From the NCBI GenBank assembly GCA_028819435.1, contig JAPPLK010000031.1, forward strand, positions 1-37,305: DNA of 37,305 bases, in the 5' to 3' direction. The position numbers were made by a program, and so were the translations under genes. Below are positions 26,096 to 36,789 of this stretch, piece after piece. Origin of the DNA: Nitrospira sp. (GTDB lineage: Bacteria > Nitrospirota > Nitrospiria > Nitrospirales > UBA8639). How positions within the stretch are numbered: position 1 is the stretch's first letter; each line of letters starts with the position of its first letter. The notes under the pieces were generated by a model. The model did not search any database, had not been told where the DNA came from, and worked only from the letters and a program-made list of their open reading frames with translations.

Positions 26096-26428
26096 TCACG
26101 GATGTGCTGGTGCTTCCTCAGCGGTCGCGCGTGGATGAACATCGATCTGTACGTCTACGTGCTGGCCGAGCTTGTTGAGCACGGTCATCAGTCGGTCAAT
26201 GGTGAAGCGGTCAAGCTGCATATTGCGAATGCGGGTAAAGTCCGCATGACTGACACTGGTGCGGTCCTCGGCCTTACGTGTCGAAAGCCCCTCATCGTCA
26301 AGAATGCCAATGATGCGGGCGGCCAAAAGCGCCTTGGTCTGCTGCACGTCGGCGTCAGCACGGCCGAAGTCACGAAAGACATTGCCGCTACCGTACACCA
26401 ACTCAAAGTTATCGTCTGTTTTGCTCAT
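26096..26428 (-). CDS. higA: HigA-like XRE-family antitoxin
   Basis: Antitoxin and presumed autorepressor of the adjacent HigB-like toxin, 110 aa. The central part is a helix-turn-helix of the HTH_37/XRE type found in HigA2-like antitoxins: ALLAARIIGILDDEGLSTRK, then SVSHADFTRIRNMQLDRFTI, then DRLMTVLNKLGQHVDVQIDV. The ATG overlaps the toxin stop by 4 nt (ATGA), so the toxin is translated first, the usual order for higBA. The C-terminal tail (HPRATAEEAPAHP) is likely disordered. Confidence 0.85.
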   Translation of the reverse strand: MSKTDDNFELVYGSGNVFRDFGRADADVQQTKALLAARIIGILDDEGLSTRKAEDRTSVSHADFTRIRNMQLDRFTIDRLMTVLNKLGQHVDVQIDVHPRATAEEAPAHP

Positions 26429-26778
26429 TGTTGCAACTCCTTCTTCAACCGTTTAAGACGTTCGCGGATCAGATCGATATCCTTCTTCGGGGTCTTGATG
26501 CCATGCTTCGCCTTCTTTTGGAAGGCGTGCAAGACCCAAAGCTGCTCTCCGAGATGTAGAGCGTAGACCGTCCGATACGCATCGGTGTGGTACTTGAGCG
26601 CTACCTCAAATACACCGGAGCCAAACCCCTTCAGCGGCTTGGCGATGTCGGTCTTACGGCCTTCGGCCGCGACCGTGAGTGCCCGCATGATCTCATCCTG
26701 CGCCCCTTTGGGAAAGACGTCGAAAGCGTTGCGCGCCGCCTTGATCCACGAGATGGGCCGGGTATCTCTGCTTCTCAT
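26425..26778 (-). CDS. higB: HigB/RelE-family toxin (phage Gp49-like)
   Basis: Probable ribosome-dependent mRNA interferase or related toxin of the PF05973 group. An ATG at 26778 gives 117 aa; a non-AUG start at 26805 would add nine residues through a possible operator, so it is disfavoured. Family features: a short N-terminal helix (ISWIKAARNAFDVFP), AKPLKGFGSGVFEVALKY, YRTVYALHLGEQLWVLHAFQKKAKHGIKTP, and a lysine-rich C-terminal helix (DLIRERLKRLKKEL). It forms a two-gene operon with the antitoxin downstream. No frame damage was seen. Confidence 0.88.
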   Translation of the reverse strand: MRSRDTRPISWIKAARNAFDVFPKGAQDEIMRALTVAAEGRKTDIAKPLKGFGSGVFEVALKYHTDAYRTVYALHLGEQLWVLHAFQKKAKHGIKTPKKDIDLIRERLKRLKKELQQ

Positions 26779-26784
26779 AGTGCA

Positions 26785-26804
26785 TGGTGGCAAATATATC
26801 ACCA
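26785..26804. promoter_or_regulatory. Possible HigA operator
   Basis: TGGTG (26785-26789) and CACCA (26800-26804) form a perfect 5-bp inverted repeat with a 10-bp AT-rich centre, immediately upstream of the toxin ATG. Position and symmetry suit an autoregulatory site; the arms are short, so chance is possible. Confidence 0.3.
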
Positions 26805-26864
26805 ATCGTCAAGAGGAACAAACTTTCTCGTTTCGGGTGGTGATCCCAATCAGCCTGAAGCAGT

Positions 26865-27309: not shown

Positions 27310-27570
27310 ATGAGCAAAACGTGGCAGGTACAAGAAGCCAAGGCACGGTTTAGTGAATTCCTTGAGACCAGCCTTGCAGAAGGTCCTCAAATCGTGACGA
27401 AACGGGGCGTAGAGGCCGCGGTATTGGTTCCCATCAATCAATGGCGACGATTGGAGCAAATGGCAAAACCCACCTTGAAGCAATTGCTCCTCGCGTCCAA
27501 ACCGCAAGCCGACATCCCGGTACCACCCCGCACCAGACAACCCCATCAGCCGGTGACGGGTTTCGATTGA
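27310..27570 (+). CDS. Phd/YefM-family antitoxin
   Basis: Antitoxin for the PIN-domain gene that follows. It is 86 aa, with GGAGG 4 nt upstream of the ATG. The N-terminal Phd fold is clear: W-x-V-x-EAKARFSEFLETSL, then GPQIVTKRGVEAAVLVPINQW. The C-terminal part (LKQLLLASKPQADIPVPPRT) is the flexible toxin-neutralising segment. The stop lies 4 nt before the toxin ATG. DNA-binding autoregulation is expected for the family; a palindrome at 27275-27288 is a candidate site. Confidence 0.92.
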   Translation: MSKTWQVQEAKARFSEFLETSLAEGPQIVTKRGVEAAVLVPINQWRRLEQMAKPTLKQLLLASKPQADIPVPPRTRQPHQPVTGFD

Positions 27571-27574
27571 ACAG

Positions 27575-27976
27575 ATGTATCTCCTCGACACCAATGTCAT
27601 CTCGGAAACGCGTCGCCCTCGTCCCGATCGTGGTGTCCTGAACTGGCTTACCGGTGTGCCCGACGAAGAACTGCACGTCTCCGCGGTCACGATTGGGGAA
27701 CTCCAGGCCGGTATCGAGATCACCCGTGAGCAGGACTCCGCCAAGGCGGAAGAACTGGAAGCCTGGCTCGGCAAGATCCTCGCTTCCTACAACGTCTTGT
27801 CCGCGGATGCGGCTGTCTTTCGAGTGTGGGCCAAGCTCAAACACCGGCAGTCAAACACCTTAATGGAGAATGCCCTGATCGCGGCCACCGCCTTGGTCCA
27901 CAGACTCACGGTCGTCACCCGTAACACCGGTGACTTTGCCCAACTCGGTGTGGAGACGCTGAACCCGTTCGAGTAA
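27575..27976 (+). CDS. VapC/FitB-like PIN-domain toxin, possible active-site substitution
   Basis: PIN-fold ribonuclease toxin of 133 aa. The first catalytic aspartate is D5 (YLLDTNVISE), the conserved glutamate is E42 (VTIGELQAGIE), and the C-terminal motif TRNTGDFAQLG retains N117 and D120. The third acidic position, usually Asp in the D-A-L-I-A-A-T-A motif, is Asn99 here (MENALIAATA), one base from GAT; Glu98 precedes it and might substitute. The protein is otherwise complete and tightly linked to its antitoxin. It may therefore be catalytically weakened. Confidence 0.9.
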   Translation: MYLLDTNVISETRRPRPDRGVLNWLTGVPDEELHVSAVTIGELQAGIEITREQDSAKAEELEAWLGKILASYNVLSADAAVFRVWAKLKHRQSNTLMENALIAATALVHRLTVVTRNTGDFAQLGVETLNPFE

Positions 27977-28011
27977 AGACCTCCCTCAAGATAAGCCGAT
28001 GAGAACCTGAC

Positions 28012-31000
28012 GTGCCCGGCCAATTATTCACCCACTACTTCCTCACCGACGGTATCAAGGCAACAGCCGAATGGAAGGCCTCAGTTGCCCGGCGGGAGGA
28101 ATTTGCTGCGTTCAGGGACGGCGTGCGTCAGAAGTACGAGACCCTGAGCCATGCCGCAGCCCCCAACGAAGCCGTCACCGAACAGGACTTGATCCGGCCC
28201 GTCTTGGATCTGCTCGGATGGGCCGACTGCCTGCCCCAGCAAGGCGCGGCTGGTCACGAAGACATTCCCGATCCCTGCTTTTTGCCGACGCCGGTGCCAA
28301 ACAGCGTGCTGCTACAAAAAAGAAGCCTGGCGGTCGCTACCGGGACGCGTTGGTGGTGCAGGAAAGCAAACGCTTCGGCCTCGCTTTGGATGCCCAGGAC
28401 GACAAGATCACGTCCGGCACGCCGCATGGTCAGATCCTCAGGTATCTCTCGACCGCCGAGACCGCTTCGGATGGCCGCATTCGCTGGGGCATCCTGACGA
28501 ACGGCGGCGTGTGGCGTCTCTATGACTACCGCTCTAGGCCTCGCGCCAGCAGCTACTTTGAAGCCGACTTGGCGGAACTGCTCGAACCCGGCAACGAAGA
28601 CGCCCTCCGGGTTTTTCACCTGCTGTTTCAGCGTGATTCCTTCACTCCTCAGCAGGGTGCTACGACGACGTTCCTCGAAGCCGCTTTGGCAGCGGGCCGC
28701 CGATACGAGGAGCGTGTCGCGCAGGATCTTTCAGGTGTGGTGTTCGAGCGTGTCTTCCCCAACCTGGTGCAAGCGGTTGCGGATGCTACGGATAAGAGTC
28801 TCGCGGAGGTCCGGGAGGCCGCCCTGATTTTCCTGTACCGGCTGCTCTTCGTGCTCTACGCCGAAGACAGGGGACTCTTGCCGGTCAACGACTCACGGTA
28901 CGACGACTACGGTCTGCGAAAGCGCGTGCGTGACGACGTTGCATGCAGGATGGCCGACGGAGATACCTTCTCCGCCCACGCCACCAGCTATTACGATCAC
29001 CTGATGACGCTCTTCAGGCTTATCGACAAGGGTGACACGTCCATCGGTCTGCCCCCATATAATGGGGGACTGTTTGCGTCTGAAACCGCGACGTTGCTGG
29101 AAGAAGCCCGTCTGCCGGACAACGCAATCGCTCCCATCATCTACGACCTGAGCCACACCACATCCGGCGAGCGACGCTTCGTCAACTACCGCGACATGTC
29201 GGTGCAGCAACTCGGCTCGATCTACGAACGCCTCCTCGAGCGTGAACCGGTCCTCGAAGAAGGAAAGATCGTTATCCGTCCGAATCCTTACGCCCGCAAG
29301 GACAGCGGCAGTTTCTTTACACCCCAGGAACTCGTCGATCTGATCGTCGAGCAGACGTTGAAGCCGCTGGCCGAGGAGCGTCTCAAGGCGTTTGAAGACA
29401 AAGCCGCTGAACTCAAGAGCCAACGCCGGCCAAAGGCTCACCGCAAAACCGAATTGCTCGAGCTGGACCCGGCCGAGGCGGTCCTGAACCTGAAGATCCT
29501 GGATCCCGGCCATGGGAAGCGGCCATTTCCTGGTCACCGCGGTAGATTTTTTGTCTGACTACGTCGCCGAACTGATTGAATACGTTCCGGCTGTACCGCA
29601 GTGGCGCGACGCCGGATATGCTTCGCCACTGGTGAAGCGCGTGGCGTCAATTCGCAAGGAGATCCTTGAACGGGCAAAAGAAGCCGACTGGGTCATAGAC
29701 GAATCCCAGCTTACCGACCAAGCCATCATTCGTCGCATGGTGCTCAAACGCTGCATCTACGGTGTTGATAAGAACCCCTGACCGTCGAATTGGCCAAGGT
29801 GTCGCTGTGGTTGCACAGCTTCACCGTGGGTGCGCCGTTGTCCTTTCTCGATCACCACCTGCGCTGTGGTGACTCGCTGATCGGGTTGCGCGTGTCCGAA
29901 GCAACCGAGGATCTACGGAAATGGGCATCCCTGTTTCTTAGCAGCGCCATAGCGGGAGCGGAAGCCGCTACGGAAGGCATGCAGAGCATCGAGGAAATGT
30001 CGGATGCGGACGTGGCCGAAGTGCAGGAGTCGGCAGCGTTGTTTCATGGAGTGGAGGAGACGACAGCGGAACTCCGCGGGATCCTGAACTCCCTCTGCGG
30101 GCTGCGTTGGTTCACCGCGGGGATGAAGCAGAAAAAGCGTGCTGAATTTGAGAGGCCGCTGGTCCGGATGCTTGCCCTGGAACCTGAGGACGCCTATAAG
30201 CGACTGGCCCGAGGGCCGGAGCATGAGGACGACGTTCCACTCGATTGTGATGGTCTTGCGTGGTCGGAGTTTGTCGAATTGTGGCGGAAAACCATATCCA
30301 TCGCCGGCAGAGAAGGTTTCCTGCACTGGGAAGTGGTTTTTCCAGGGGTGTGGCGCGATTGGCAAAGCACCAGCCCGCAAGGCGGTTTTGACGCCGTGAT
30401 CGGCAACCCGCCGTGGGACCGTATCAAGCTGCAAGAAGTGGAATGGTTCGCAACCCGCGATCCCGAACTTGCTTTCGCTCCGACGGCAGCGGCGCGGGGC
30501 AAAGGCATTCAACGGCTACGCAAACAGGGATCGCCCCTTGCAGCCGAGTTCGACAACGCCAAGCATCGAGCGGACAGGCTCGGAGAGGTCATTCGGGCTT
30601 CCGGCGACTACCCTTTGCTCAGCGGTGGCGACATCAACTTGTACTCGCTGTTCGTCGAGCGGGCCCTGGGCTTGATCAAGTCCAACGGGTTCGTGGGCCT
30701 GCTCACGCCATCGGGTATTTATGCCGACAAGACTGCGGCCCGCTTCTTCCAGTCCGTTTCCACGAACGGTCGGGTGGGCGGCCTGTTCGACTTCGAGAAC
30801 AAGAAGATATTTTTCAAGGACGTTCATGCATCCTTCAAATTCTGCGCCCTCATCTTCGGCGGGGAAGAACGCCGGTTCAAAGAGACGCGCTGTGCCTTTT
30901 TCCTACACGACACCGCGGAGATTGACGACGTAGACCGCTGCTTCCCGCTGGCACCGTCGGATTTCGCCCGCGTCAACCCCAATACCGGCACCGCGCCCGT

Positions 31001-32033
31001 GTTCCGCTTCCGGCGCGATGCGGACATTACCCGCCGCATCTACGAACGGCATCCGGTTCTGGTGGACCGCTCAGGTGCCCACGAGCGCAAGGTGTGGCCA
31101 GTTCGTTATCGGCAGGGACTGTTTCACTCACAGAACGATTCAGGTCTCTTCCGAACGGTGGCGCAGCTTGAAACCGAAGGCTTCTATCCCGTCGAAAGCA
31201 ACCGCTGGAAGAAGGGAAAGGATCTGTATTTACCACTGTATGAGGGAAAGACGGTGCAGGCCTTCGATCATCGCGCCGCCAGCATCACCAACCGTGAAGA
31301 TAACTTGTTTCGACCGGGGCAGCAGGACAAAACCCTTGACGAAGAATACCGTGACCCGAATTTCTCACCCCGTCCTCGATATTGGATTGGTCAACAAGCG
31401 AGCGCTGTTACGCAGAGTTTGCACTACTTCTTAGCTTTCAAAGAAATTACAGCGTCAACCAATGTTCGTACCATGATTTCCGCTATCGTTCCACAGGTAG
31501 GGTGCCTCGACACATTACCCGTTCTTCTGCCACTCAACGACCGATTTGACGCTCTTAGCGTGACGTGCGTCCTAGCCAACCTTAACAGTTTTTGTTTCGA
31601 CTATGTTGCCCGTCAAAAGGTGCCAAGCACTCACATCAAACTGTACATCCTTGAGCAACTCCCCGTCATCGTACCAGACGACTACGATCGTACATTCGGC
31701 ACGACGACAGCCCGAGCCCTCGTCCGAGACCATGTGCTCCGCCTTACCTATACAGCCCACGATATGGCCTCCTTTGCCCACGATCTCGGCTACGACGGCC
31801 AGCCCTTCGTCTGGAACGAAGAAGAACGCCGCCACCTGCGCGCCCGTCTCGACGCGCTCTACTTCCACCTTTACGGCCTGACCAAAGAAGACGCGGAGTA
31901 CGTGCTGAACACCTTCCCCATAGTCCGCCGGGAAGACGAAGCCGCCTTCGGCCGCTACCGCACCCGCGACCTCATCCTCGCCTACATGAACGCCCTCTCC
32001 GCCGGCGATATGGAAACGGTGGTAGCGCCATAA
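28012..32033 (+). pseudogene. Type IIG-like (Eco57I-type) restriction endonuclease-methyltransferase, three frameshifts
   Basis: Repairing three 1-nt indels gives one protein of about 1340 aa. It has an N-terminal PD-(D/E)xK-like region (DIPD ... LLFADAG ... LVVQESKRFG), a helical region, methyltransferase motif I (DPAMGSGHFLV), and the adenine-methyltransferase motif IV NPPW at 30405-30416. Target-recognition sequence follows to the TAA/TGA-terminated end at 32033. Breaks: one base missing near 28270-28276, between the PD and ESK halves; one extra G at 29508, inside motif I; one C missing in the CCCC run at 29775-29778. As read, the longest intact piece is the C-terminal 29790-32033 segment. 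Such enzymes cut and methylate with one polypeptide. The start is taken as the GTG at 28012. Sequencing error is the main alternative. Confidence 0.85.
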
Positions 32034-33425: not shown

Positions 33426-34046
33426 CTAAGCGAACAGTCTCTTAAGCCAAGCAATAAGATCCTGACAAAGAGTGCCGCTAATGTTCAAATCACACACACC
33501 AATAGCTAAACCCATTTTCCTAGGGTCCTCCCTAGTCGCTAGCCAAGCATGAAGTTGAGCTCGCTGTGTCTTACCCTGTGAAAACTTCCTGTCTGCTTCC
33601 GGAATACTGTCTATGTAGCGTTGGGACTGCGGCCATATCGGGTCACCATCGGGAATCATGTGTATGACGAAATTTTCAAGTTCGCCTGGCATAGAGTTGT
33701 CCGGCATCAGCCAAATACCGATACGAGGCTGGCACTCTATGATTGTCCCGGTTGGGTCGGGGGACGACGGTGCTTGGATGTTCGCCTTCCGAAGCCGATC
33801 CGTTATAGCCTTCCAACGTGCCTTTAAATCGTCGTTTGCATCCACGAGAACGCCAACGGCCAGCCGTCCAGGAGTTTTGATTTCGGGGTTAATCGAGTCG
33901 AGCACTTTGTCGATGTTTCCCTTATCCGAAATGGAAAAAGTCGGGTTCAATTGGTGACGATCACGGAGGTGCCGAATTACGTGTTTGTCGTCCGGTCCTT
34001 CGACTAAAAGAACGCGATCCGATGGCGGTGATGGTGGGGTAGCCAT
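33426..34046 (-). CDS. DUF3226-type TOPRIM-like protein, partner of the AAA ATPase
   Basis: It is 206 aa from the ATG at 34046, 3 nt after the ATPase stop. The N-terminus reads RVLLVEGPDDKHVIRHL, a TOPRIM-like glutamate motif with E16. VGVLVDANDDLKARW carries D69, D72 and D73 in the position of the TOPRIM DxD. IGIWLMPDNSMPGELENFV is characteristic of DUF3226. TOPRIM folds bind divalent metal and act as nucleases or primases; in the OLD and PARIS phage-defence systems a TOPRIM domain is the effector controlled by an ABC-type ATPase. Such a role is inferred from the neighbour and fold motifs, not proven. Confidence 0.8.
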   Translation of the reverse strand: MATPPSPPSDRVLLVEGPDDKHVIRHLRDRHQLNPTFSISDKGNIDKVLDSINPEIKTPGRLAVGVLVDANDDLKARWKAITDRLRKANIQAPSSPDPTGTIIECQPRIGIWLMPDNSMPGELENFVIHMIPDGDPIWPQSQRYIDSIPEADRKFSQGKTQRAQLHAWLATREDPRKMGLAIGVCDLNISGTLCQDLIAWLKRLFA

Positions 34047-34049
34047 CAA

Positions 34050-35183
34050 CTATCTAACTTCAATACCTTGCTCGGCTACGACTCGGAGCTCTTCTTCAGA
34101 ATATTCCACCGATCGAATTCCATCACCGTTGGTCTCAAGGCGAACGAGAGCGCCTTCCACTTCTTCTGATTCCGTTACTGCTTGCGCAAAACCTGCCACG
34201 CAATCCCATCCGTGCGTCGTTGCGAAAACCTGGACATTGTTTTCGTGTGCTGTTTTGATAACCATCTTCCAGAAATCTCGTTGCACCGAATGGTGGATGC
34301 CGTTTTCCGCTTCATCGATAACCAGAAATCCATCTGGGCTGTTGGCAAGGGCCAAAGCGACACCAAATAGGCGCACGGCCCCGTCGCCAAGGCTTTTCAG
34401 AGGAACAGGGTGAACCTGTCCCTCGATTTTCGCTACGACTCGTCGGCCATAAGGTGCTCGACGTGATCTTTCGGCACCGATCATCGCAACACGGTCAACT
34501 TTACTGCCGAAGATCAGATTCAGTGCATCCACTGCCCGGATTTCATCATCTGTAAGTGCTACCTTGTCCCAGAACCGCGCCATGTCCCAATTGCTTAGCA
34601 AACTTGGGCCTAGAGACTCGCATCGAATTTCAGGTGGAAGGTCGGATTCTTCACTGAAATATCTGCGATACCTGACATCAGCTCTACTTGCAAGCAAAAG
34701 CAAGGGGATTTCTTGTTTCATGCCTTGGAATTCGATACTGAGCAACTGACCATCATCCTCTGAGGAATACGATGAAAAGAGCCTTTTCCATCGATTAGTT
34801 TCTTTTGCACTACTAAGCGAAGTGGTCTTGATGCTGAGAAGCTGGTTTTTGTTCACTGCGCCTATTGAAATGTGAGCATTTGATGAAGTTTTCCAACCAT
34901 GGAAAAGAGCCTCCCAATCGGGTGTAAGCGTTTCCTCGCCGTCTTCATCAACACCTTCAGCAAGCTCTTCCCTGCTCTGCAATATGCTCGTCAGGACAGA
35001 ATAGCGACCACGCGCGGCATAGAGCCGGACGGCGTCAAGCAGGGTTGTTTTTCCGACTCCGTTTTTTCCTGCGAACAGTGTCACGCGGCCTAACCGAGAA
35101 ATCGAAAGGTTCTCGATTCCGCGAAATCCTCTGACCGAGAGGCTGGGAAGGTGAAGCTTTGCCTTGGATGCTTTTGCGGACAT
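34050..35183 (-). CDS. OLD/PARIS-like AAA (ABC-type) ATPase
   Basis: It is 377 aa. N-terminal strand motif LSVRGFRGIENLSI, Walker A GKNGVGKT at 39-46, an ABC-like signature LKSLGDGAVRL at 262-272, Walker B FLVIDEAENG at 286-295, and a switch histidine in ATTHGWD at 321-327. The inserted middle region (about 75-240) is variable, as in AAA_15/AAA_21 proteins. The gene is first in a two-gene minus-strand operon with the DUF3226 protein. A good promoter lies just upstream. The family fits ATPases that sense infection and release or activate a nuclease partner; the trigger here is unknown. The base composition is visibly more AT-rich than the nuo genes, consistent with acquisition. Confidence 0.88.
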   Translation of the reverse strand: MSAKASKAKLHLPSLSVRGFRGIENLSISRLGRVTLFAGKNGVGKTTLLDAVRLYAARGRYSVLTSILQSREELAEGVDEDGEETLTPDWEALFHGWKTSSNAHISIGAVNKNQLLSIKTTSLSSAKETNRWKRLFSSYSSEDDGQLLSIEFQGMKQEIPLLLLASRADVRYRRYFSEESDLPPEIRCESLGPSLLSNWDMARFWDKVALTDDEIRAVDALNLIFGSKVDRVAMIGAERSRRAPYGRRVVAKIEGQVHPVPLKSLGDGAVRLFGVALALANSPDGFLVIDEAENGIHHSVQRDFWKMVIKTAHENNVQVFATTHGWDCVAGFAQAVTESEEVEGALVRLETNGDGIRSVEYSEEELRVVAEQGIEVR

Positions 35184-35904: not shown

Positions 35905-36789
35905 ATGGCAACATCGAAACCGATGAAAAAGCGAATCCAGGCATTAAAGGAAGAATATGACGCATTGAAGCCGGGAAAGGAAGCACTGTTGTCGATGATC
36001 GACGAGGTGGAAATCCCGGAAAACGTCTACAATTCCAATGCCATCGAAAACTCGACGCTCACTCTTGAGGAAACAGAGAAAATTTTGTTGGAGCAGAAGC
36101 TGTCCCGGAACGTCTCGTTGCGGGAGGTGTTCGAAGCGAAAAATCTGGCAAGGGTTATAGACTATAAGCGCAAGAAAGTGAAGGAGAGTGAACTGAGTAA
36201 GGACTTGATCGTACTGTTCCATCAGATGCTGATCGGCGGCATCGATGATGCGATTGCGGGCCGCTTTCGCGGCAAGGGTGAGTACGTGAGAGTGGGCGCG
36301 TATATCGCCCCGGCGCCCGAGCACGTCGAGCGCATGATCGAGACCGCCCTGCTGGGATATTCCAGTGATCTCGGCACATATTTTTTGGACAGGATTGCCA
36401 AGTTTCATCTGGATTTCGAGACCATCCATCCGTTTTGCGACGGCAATGGTCGCATAGGTCGTGTCATCATCAATTTTCAATTGCTCCAACTTGGCCTGCC
36501 GCGCATTATCATCCGCAATAAGGAAAAGAACGTCTACTATCAGGCGTTCAGCGATTATGGGGCGAAGAAAACGACGAAAACGATGGAGGGCATCTTGTCG
36601 TTGGCTCTCGTCGAGTCGCTGCACAAGCGGCTGAGTTATTTGAGAGGAGAGCGAATCATCAAGCTGTCAGAGTATATTAAGCAGCAAGGACTTTCGGCGC
36701 CGGCCATAACCAACGCCGCCCGCCGTCAGGCCATTCCCGCCTTCCGCGAAAAGGGCGTGTGGAAGATCGGGGGGAAATTCGTCCCATGA
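35905..36789 (+). CDS. Fic-domain AMP-transferase (class II, self-inhibited)
   Basis: It is 294 aa. The Fic core motif HPFCDGNGRIGR at 175-186 matches HxFx(D/E)GNGRxxR, so AMPylation activity is plausible; the target is unknown. An N-terminal inhibitory motif (S/T)xxxE(G/N) is present as SNAIEN at 44-49, marking a class II Fic protein whose inhibitory glutamate is in the same chain. The flap (EYVRVGAYIAPAPEHVERM) is intact. The C-terminus (RIIKLSEYIKQQGLSAPAIT to GVWKIGGKFVP) looks like a winged-helix domain. The start is taken as the ATG at 35905 with a weak AGG; M7 at 35923 is an alternative. It is preceded by an AT-rich spacer of about 90 bp. Confidence 0.9.
   Translation: MATSKPMKKRIQALKEEYDALKPGKEALLSMIDEVEIPENVYNSNAIENSTLTLEETEKILLEQKLSRNVSLREVFEAKNLARVIDYKRKKVKESELSKDLIVLFHQMLIGGIDDAIAGRFRGKGEYVRVGAYIAPAPEHVERMIETALLGYSSDLGTYFLDRIAKFHLDFETIHPFCDGNGRIGRVIINFQLLQLGLPRIIIRNKEKNVYYQAFSDYGAKKTTKTMEGILSLALVESLHKRLSYLRGERIIKLSEYIKQQGLSAPAITNAARRQAIPAFREKGVWKIGGKFVP

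Follow-up and report, generated by a model that had tools for sequence, protein, structure and literature searches.

Type IIG restriction-methylases such as BpuSI and DrdV consist of one chain with an N-terminal PD-(D/E)xK nuclease, a helical spacer, an adenine methylase, and a C-terminal part. An intact enzyme of this type would cut unmodified DNA and methylate that of its host, and motif I of the methylase serves in cofactor binding. The window analysed here is a stretch of 37,305 bases, which is the whole of contig C36 in a 2.62 Mb Nitrospira draft genome of 114 contigs. It contains a gene (28012-32033) that resembles BpuSI and DrdV in domain order. Unlike these enzymes, however, the window's copy has three frame changes, and it is most probably a recent pseudogene of a type IIG restriction-methylase that arose through three one-base frame changes.

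The assignment to type IIG, proposed from the letters alone in a sequence-only reading of the window, is borne out by PADLOC and Pfam models, by nuclease motifs, and by the fold of an intact homologue, L047 (1349 aa). Among PADLOC models, L047 matches DrmMI best (6.4e-88) and REase_MTase_IIG as well (1.5e-72), and its Pfam matches are Eco57I and also N6_Mtase. Among 41 homologues, P89, D90, and E121 are invariant and K123 is conserved in at least 90%. Intact homologues carry the PD-(D/E)xK nuclease in the same chain, whereas the PD and ExK halves lie in different frames in the window. Similarly, adenine methylase motifs I and IV (DPxMGSG and GNPPW) occur in the same chain and are conserved in the aligned proteins, while motif I of the window is split. 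A fold model of the first 444 residues of L047, built from the 41 homologues, has a mean pLDDT of 85.6. In VIA-align comparisons, residues 36-229 of the model match BpuSI (Z 8.6, 146 residues, 3.9 A), residues 51-235 match a type I HsdR fragment (Z 10.2, 126 residues, 4.9 A), and residues about 240-430 match modification subunits (Z 8.0-9.4), but unrelated mitoribosomal chains score up to Z 8.0 in the same comparison, and thus the nuclease fold assignment rests on fold and motifs jointly. The match to DrdV is looser (Z 9.4, 245 residues, rmsd 16.9 A). Foldseek with the L047 model gives no match at E 0.001 or better, with BpuSI as the top row at E 0.029, and PDB sequence searches return nothing for the last segment of the gene and no chain below E 0.17 for intact L047. 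Residues 1051-1200 are more variable among homologues (42-85% identity), as a specificity region would be, and residues 676-750 are likewise variable against more distant homologues. No specificity-domain model in Pfam matches the type IIG protein; the last segment probably contains the specificity region. Judged from these sequence features, the broken gene appears to have once encoded a single-chain type IIG restriction-methylase, which was presumably active.

The score of DrmMI, the DISARM methylase, as the best PADLOC model for L047 is a point of likeness to DISARM. In contrast to DISARM class 1, in which drmA, drmB, and drmC are neighbours, no DrmA-sized frame (DrmA is about 1000 aa) adjoins the type IIG gene. 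None is present in the window, whose contig ends 5.3 kb downstream, or in the examined stretches of G009, G010, and G011, where PADLOC covered some of the neighbours. Since no DrmA-sized neighbour is seen, type IIG is the fitting class.

Relative to L047, the gene comprises four segments in alternating frames on the forward strand. The tblastn matches lie in frame 1 (28003-28272), frame 3 (28275-29528), frame 1 (29506-29778), and frame 3 (29775-32027), with identities of 76-93%. Segment 1 (28012-28272) corresponds to L047 residues 1-90 and runs from the N-terminus through the nuclease PD, which is invariant in the 41 homologues. Directly after PD, and before ExK, the first frame change (28272-28275) occurs beside short C and T runs. 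Segment 2 (28275-29507; 91% identical to L047) contains the ExK half of the nuclease and the helical region up to motif I, and is supported by the PADLOC models DrmMI and REase_MTase_IIG and by the fold. The second frame change (29506-29512) falls inside methyltransferase motif I (DPxMGSG), and segment 3 (29512-29778; 93%, also matched by PADLOC models) extends from the second half of this motif to GVDKNP. There, in a C run, lies the third frame change (29775-29781), at which the old frame meets an immediate stop. Segment 4 (29781-32033; 84%, Pfam Eco57I 8.5e-15) comprises the remaining methylase with its GNPPW motif, the probable specificity region, and the C-terminal tail. Tail searches show that this tail, the last 80 codons (31791-32030), is the sole surviving relic in several relatives.

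All three sites are located by tblastn, by an alignment with seven homologues, and by a codon-model scan that uses no homologue and switches state at 28274, 29511, and 29781. The codon model is trained on long open frames of a genome sample that includes the type IIG gene itself. Its strict frame-shift call is passed by two of the three sites, the third having a stop at the junction, and one of the three is kept after retraining on more sequence. The three 1-nt indels that the sequence-only reading had noticed are thus confirmed by the four-frame match to the intact L047, the nearest-homologue comparison that it had asked for, and its placing of two of them, between PD and ExK and inside motif I, agrees with the alignment. 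The third does follow motif I, but 'just after' is loose, as the change lies about 90 codons later. The rest of the gene is intact, as had been stated, with no in-frame stop in the 1337 codons read (87+411+89+750). The fragment 28071-29558, which had been taken as a frame of the gene, belongs to it from about 28275 onward, while its first 68 codons are in the wrong frame.

Eighty homologues, fetched by match to segment 4, were compared for damage. In 66 of them, a single open frame spans nearly the entire gene (65 by script count, plus L022, which was flagged solely for a separate tail relic and is counted as open). Six have one frame change each (L043, L057, L068, L070, L090, L093), three have one in-frame stop (L050, L061, L097), and four are cut by the locus end. 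L060 is without the first 739 residues and is thus a C-terminal piece, though counted as a main gene. The gene is therefore damaged in 10 of the 76 homologues that are not cut by the locus end. None of the 80 shows two or more frame changes, and none is shifted at the window's three places. The disruption in the window is unshared, and the notion that homologues might be naturally split at these places finds no case, the six frame changes all lying elsewhere.

Two further observations concern the homologues themselves. Four Chloroflexi proteins (L056, L061, L086, L093) contain extra in-frame stretches of roughly 300-400 bases, located at family residue about 740-758 in L056, L061, and L093 and at two other places in L086. 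L023, from Latescibacterota, is 78% identical to segment 4, compared to 71-72% for the same-genus G010 copy (L028), which suggests transfer among phyla.

With L022 as outgroup, the window branch has dN 0.049, dS 0.274, and dN/dS 0.18 (L028 as outgroup gives similar values), and the L047 branch has dN 0.029, dS 0.194, and dN/dS 0.15. The lineage-specific nonsynonymous and synonymous changes are 87/96 in the window and 46/65 in L047 (Fisher p 0.33). If the neutral ratio is 1, the point estimate for the neutral share of the window branch is about 3%, which is compatible with zero. Of 713 residues that do not vary among six other homologues, 20 are changed in the window, counting gaps at the left-out junction codons, and 10 in L047; these counts fit the longer branch of the window, and a slight relaxation is possible. 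The absence of clear relaxation on the window branch makes the loss look recent. A long decay is supported neither by dN/dS nor by the changes at invariant residues; the recent decay suggested by the sequence-only reading is supported, with purifying selection along the branch.

The first frame change alone would end translation within the nuclease, so that cutting and methylation would be lost together, and the remaining long open frames would be remains that have not had time for further decay. The gene presumably has no active product now, and the three changes probably arose independently; the data give no order among them. It had been argued that the nuclease must fail before or together with the methylase. 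This argument does not carry, because the enzyme is a single polypeptide and the first change removes both activities. Moreover, once deprived of the methylase and the specificity part, a type IIG nuclease would not be expected to show specific cleavage, and a methylase-first order would leave the nuclease without the specificity part.

The alternative that survives best, although improbable, is a consensus error, in which a locally weak stretch would have produced three false shifts in a gene that is really intact. Short runs lie at or beside each of the three sites, the substitutions look selected as expected of an intact gene, and the genome is a draft of 114 contigs. This alternative was tested by a frame-shift scan with a three-periodic codon model, covering 558,854 bases of the same genome including the window (about a fifth of the genome), of which 434,280 are called coding. 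The scan makes four calls outside the type IIG gene, all ordinary gene junctions by eye; of 60 planted single-base shifts it recovers 25 and misses more than half. Zero other shifts correspond to a 95% upper rate of about 1.7 per 100 kb, or about 0.07 expected in 4 kb, and at this rate, under uniform error, three shifts in 4 kb have a probability of about 5e-5. The three shifts are thus far above the genome background. In the control genome G011, three calls occur in 323,623 coding bases, two being plain gene junctions and the third lying at L123:13809. Because no other true frame change is found in the sampled genome, an assembly error is unlikely, and the earlier suggestion of a mis-sequenced gene is disfavoured; damage among homologues (10 of 76) is not rare either, and genomes of the genus have commonly lost the gene. 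The shifts may still stem from a poor local consensus or from a mixture of strains at the gene itself.

It is far less probable that the fragments act as a split enzyme or an orphan methylase. The 747-codon frame at 29790-32033 does retain GNPPW and the C-terminal region, but motif I itself is broken and is parted from GNPPW by a further frame change, and no natural split of such a kind exists among the 80 homologues. A phase-variable or programmed-frameshift gene that yields full-length enzyme part of the time, which the sequence-only reading had also entertained on its long open fragments and which the well-kept residues would suit, is the least credible of all, as runs at the three sites reach at most 5, 3, and 4 bases with no long repeat tract, all three sites must switch or be bypassed together, and none of the 80 homologues is split at these places.

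A recent pseudogene also fits into a wider pattern of loss in the genus, for which 14 genomes, G000 (the window's own) to G013, were compared. The genus appears to be GTDB genus 'bin75', which is described as predominantly sponge-associated and whose member is reported to show signs of vertical transmission (PMC11812461). Upstream of the slot, the window contains complex I genes (Pfam NADHdh and three Proton_antipo_M). We take these to be the nuo operon, and the last one, of 491 aa, to be nuoN. Between them and a PIN-domain gene lies a HigB/HigA-like toxin-antitoxin pair (26096-26805, reverse strand; Gp49-like and HTH_37 domains). A Phd-type antitoxin and the PIN-domain (VapC-like) toxin follow (27310-27976, forward strand; PF02604, PF01850), and the gene for the PIN toxin adjoins the slot in several genus genomes. 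Downstream, the variable part of the slot has an AAA ATPase (PDC-M38A / AbiLi-like) and a DUF3226 (PDC-M38B) gene as a pair on the reverse strand (33426-35183), identified with PADLOC models and Pfam, and a Fic-domain gene (35905-36789, forward strand; PF02661) serves as a landmark that is also present in G007, G009, G011, and G013. The models that match the ATPase/DUF3226 pair are those of PDC-M38A/B, a candidate defence pair, and of AbiLi. The 491-aa complex I gene, whole or cut, is present in the fetched stretches of G001, G004-G007, G009, G010, G012, and G013, and is absent from the 20 kb around the type IIG gene of G011. The same PIN-domain gene precedes the slot in G004-G007 and G009, and the genes behind it vary, some of them being defence-like.

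The slot near the nuo operon constitutes a loss series, in which the gene is open, has one break or three breaks, is replaced, or is reduced to its tail. The type IIG gene is open in G009, G010, and G011, with frames of 1343-1364 aa. G006 (L175/L070) has a single frame change near residue 306-327, apart from the window's three places, and G000 has its three. The G013 gene runs off the end of its contig. G001, G004, G005, G007, and G012 have no gene body and keep the tail (last 60-80 codons), and G002, G003, and G008 give no match to head, middle, or tail queries. In G004 and G005, inspection by eye suggests deletions between short sequences in common, of about 5-6 and about 10 bases. G007 and G012 carry another one-chain restriction-methylase in the same slot, a type IIG gene with a Type ISP C-terminal domain (L166:5326-8535 in G007; L167 in G012), which belongs to a different family from the window's gene. 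The G007 copy matches PDLC03610 (5.5e-256) and shares 84% identity with the G012 copy. In both genomes, 18-20 codons of the old head precede the Type ISP gene, and the old tail follows it. The idea that the tail is a travelling 3' border of unrelated defence genes was rejected: among 13 examined Type ISP loci, only those of G007 and G012 have tail and head beside them, the other 11 being without (L249 is short), and the tail in G007 and G012 thus looks like a local remnant.

Tail relics are more frequent than relics of other gene parts. Within the genus, 12 of the 17 tail matches lie apart from a gene body, including a weak match elsewhere in the window's genome (G000:C104:8397-8585; 48% identity, in a frame of 94 aa). 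Besides genes, the genus head query yields two short pieces (G007, G012), and the 411-residue middle query yields none. The relics occupy the slot of seven same-genus genomes (L166-L171, L141); in G011 the relic lies beside an intact copy, and in G013 on another contig than the gene. Nine genus relics start within 64 bases (31781-31844 in window coordinates), and two others start at 31937 and 31947. Their upstream junctions are of at least six different kinds: one is common to G007 and G012, a second to one relic of G007, one of G001, and that of G013, and the other G001 copy, G011, G004, and G005 have one each of their own.

Other lineages were searched in 41 genomes, the source of 44 loci among the 80; the remainder comprises the more distant loci, L063, and the four same-genus loci. 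The 80-residue tail query has 66 matches there, 21 of them in frames under 300 aa, compared to 47 matches and none in such short frames for an 80-residue mid-protein control query. Three of the 21 belong to broken main genes (G093, G096, G097), which leaves 18 pieces without gene body in 12 genomes; several are short and weak, and that of G063:C41 lies 445 bases into its contig and may represent the end of a truncated gene. In-frame stops are present in four of the 18. A scan with the full-length protein over 88 loci gives 25 'relic' matches, of which 21 are kept, 19 at the tail and two at one head place, after L056, L061, L086 (q845-1349), and L093 are dropped as parts of main genes. Among these 19, a match in G012 (q1238-1349) has just 33% identity, and the scan is biased because the stretches of G001, G004, G005, G007, G012, and one of G013 were fetched for their tails. 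In the 76 loci fetched by gene body, eight tail relics are found (two each in L033 and L058, one each in L036, L038, L086, and L097) and none from elsewhere in the gene. The dN/dS between relics is 0.21, versus 0.29 between main-gene tails, but it is not decisive on a selected peptide because much of the divergence may predate the losses.

Restriction genes are well known to decay, and a broken type IIG gene is an ordinary kind of event. The value of the locus lies in the series; the tail pieces are the one oddity that merits further attention. The interpretation in the sequence-only reading holds for the type IIG identity, the central frame changes, and the recent decay; phase variation and mis-sequencing are disfavoured, and the order of loss is not supported. 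Among literature titles on restriction-modification decay and Nitrospira symbionts, no description of the locus or of tail relics was found. Tentatively, the 3' end of the gene could be a special seam, where the tail is kept or used, as a free peptide or as a homology pad for re-acquiring restriction genes, or where deletions and replacements repeatedly end. If so, restriction genes would be exchanged at the slot, and the relics would be the scars of that exchange. In this symbiont group, described as vertically inherited (PMC11812461), the series in one slot allows the tempo and the endpoints of restriction-gene loss to be measured.
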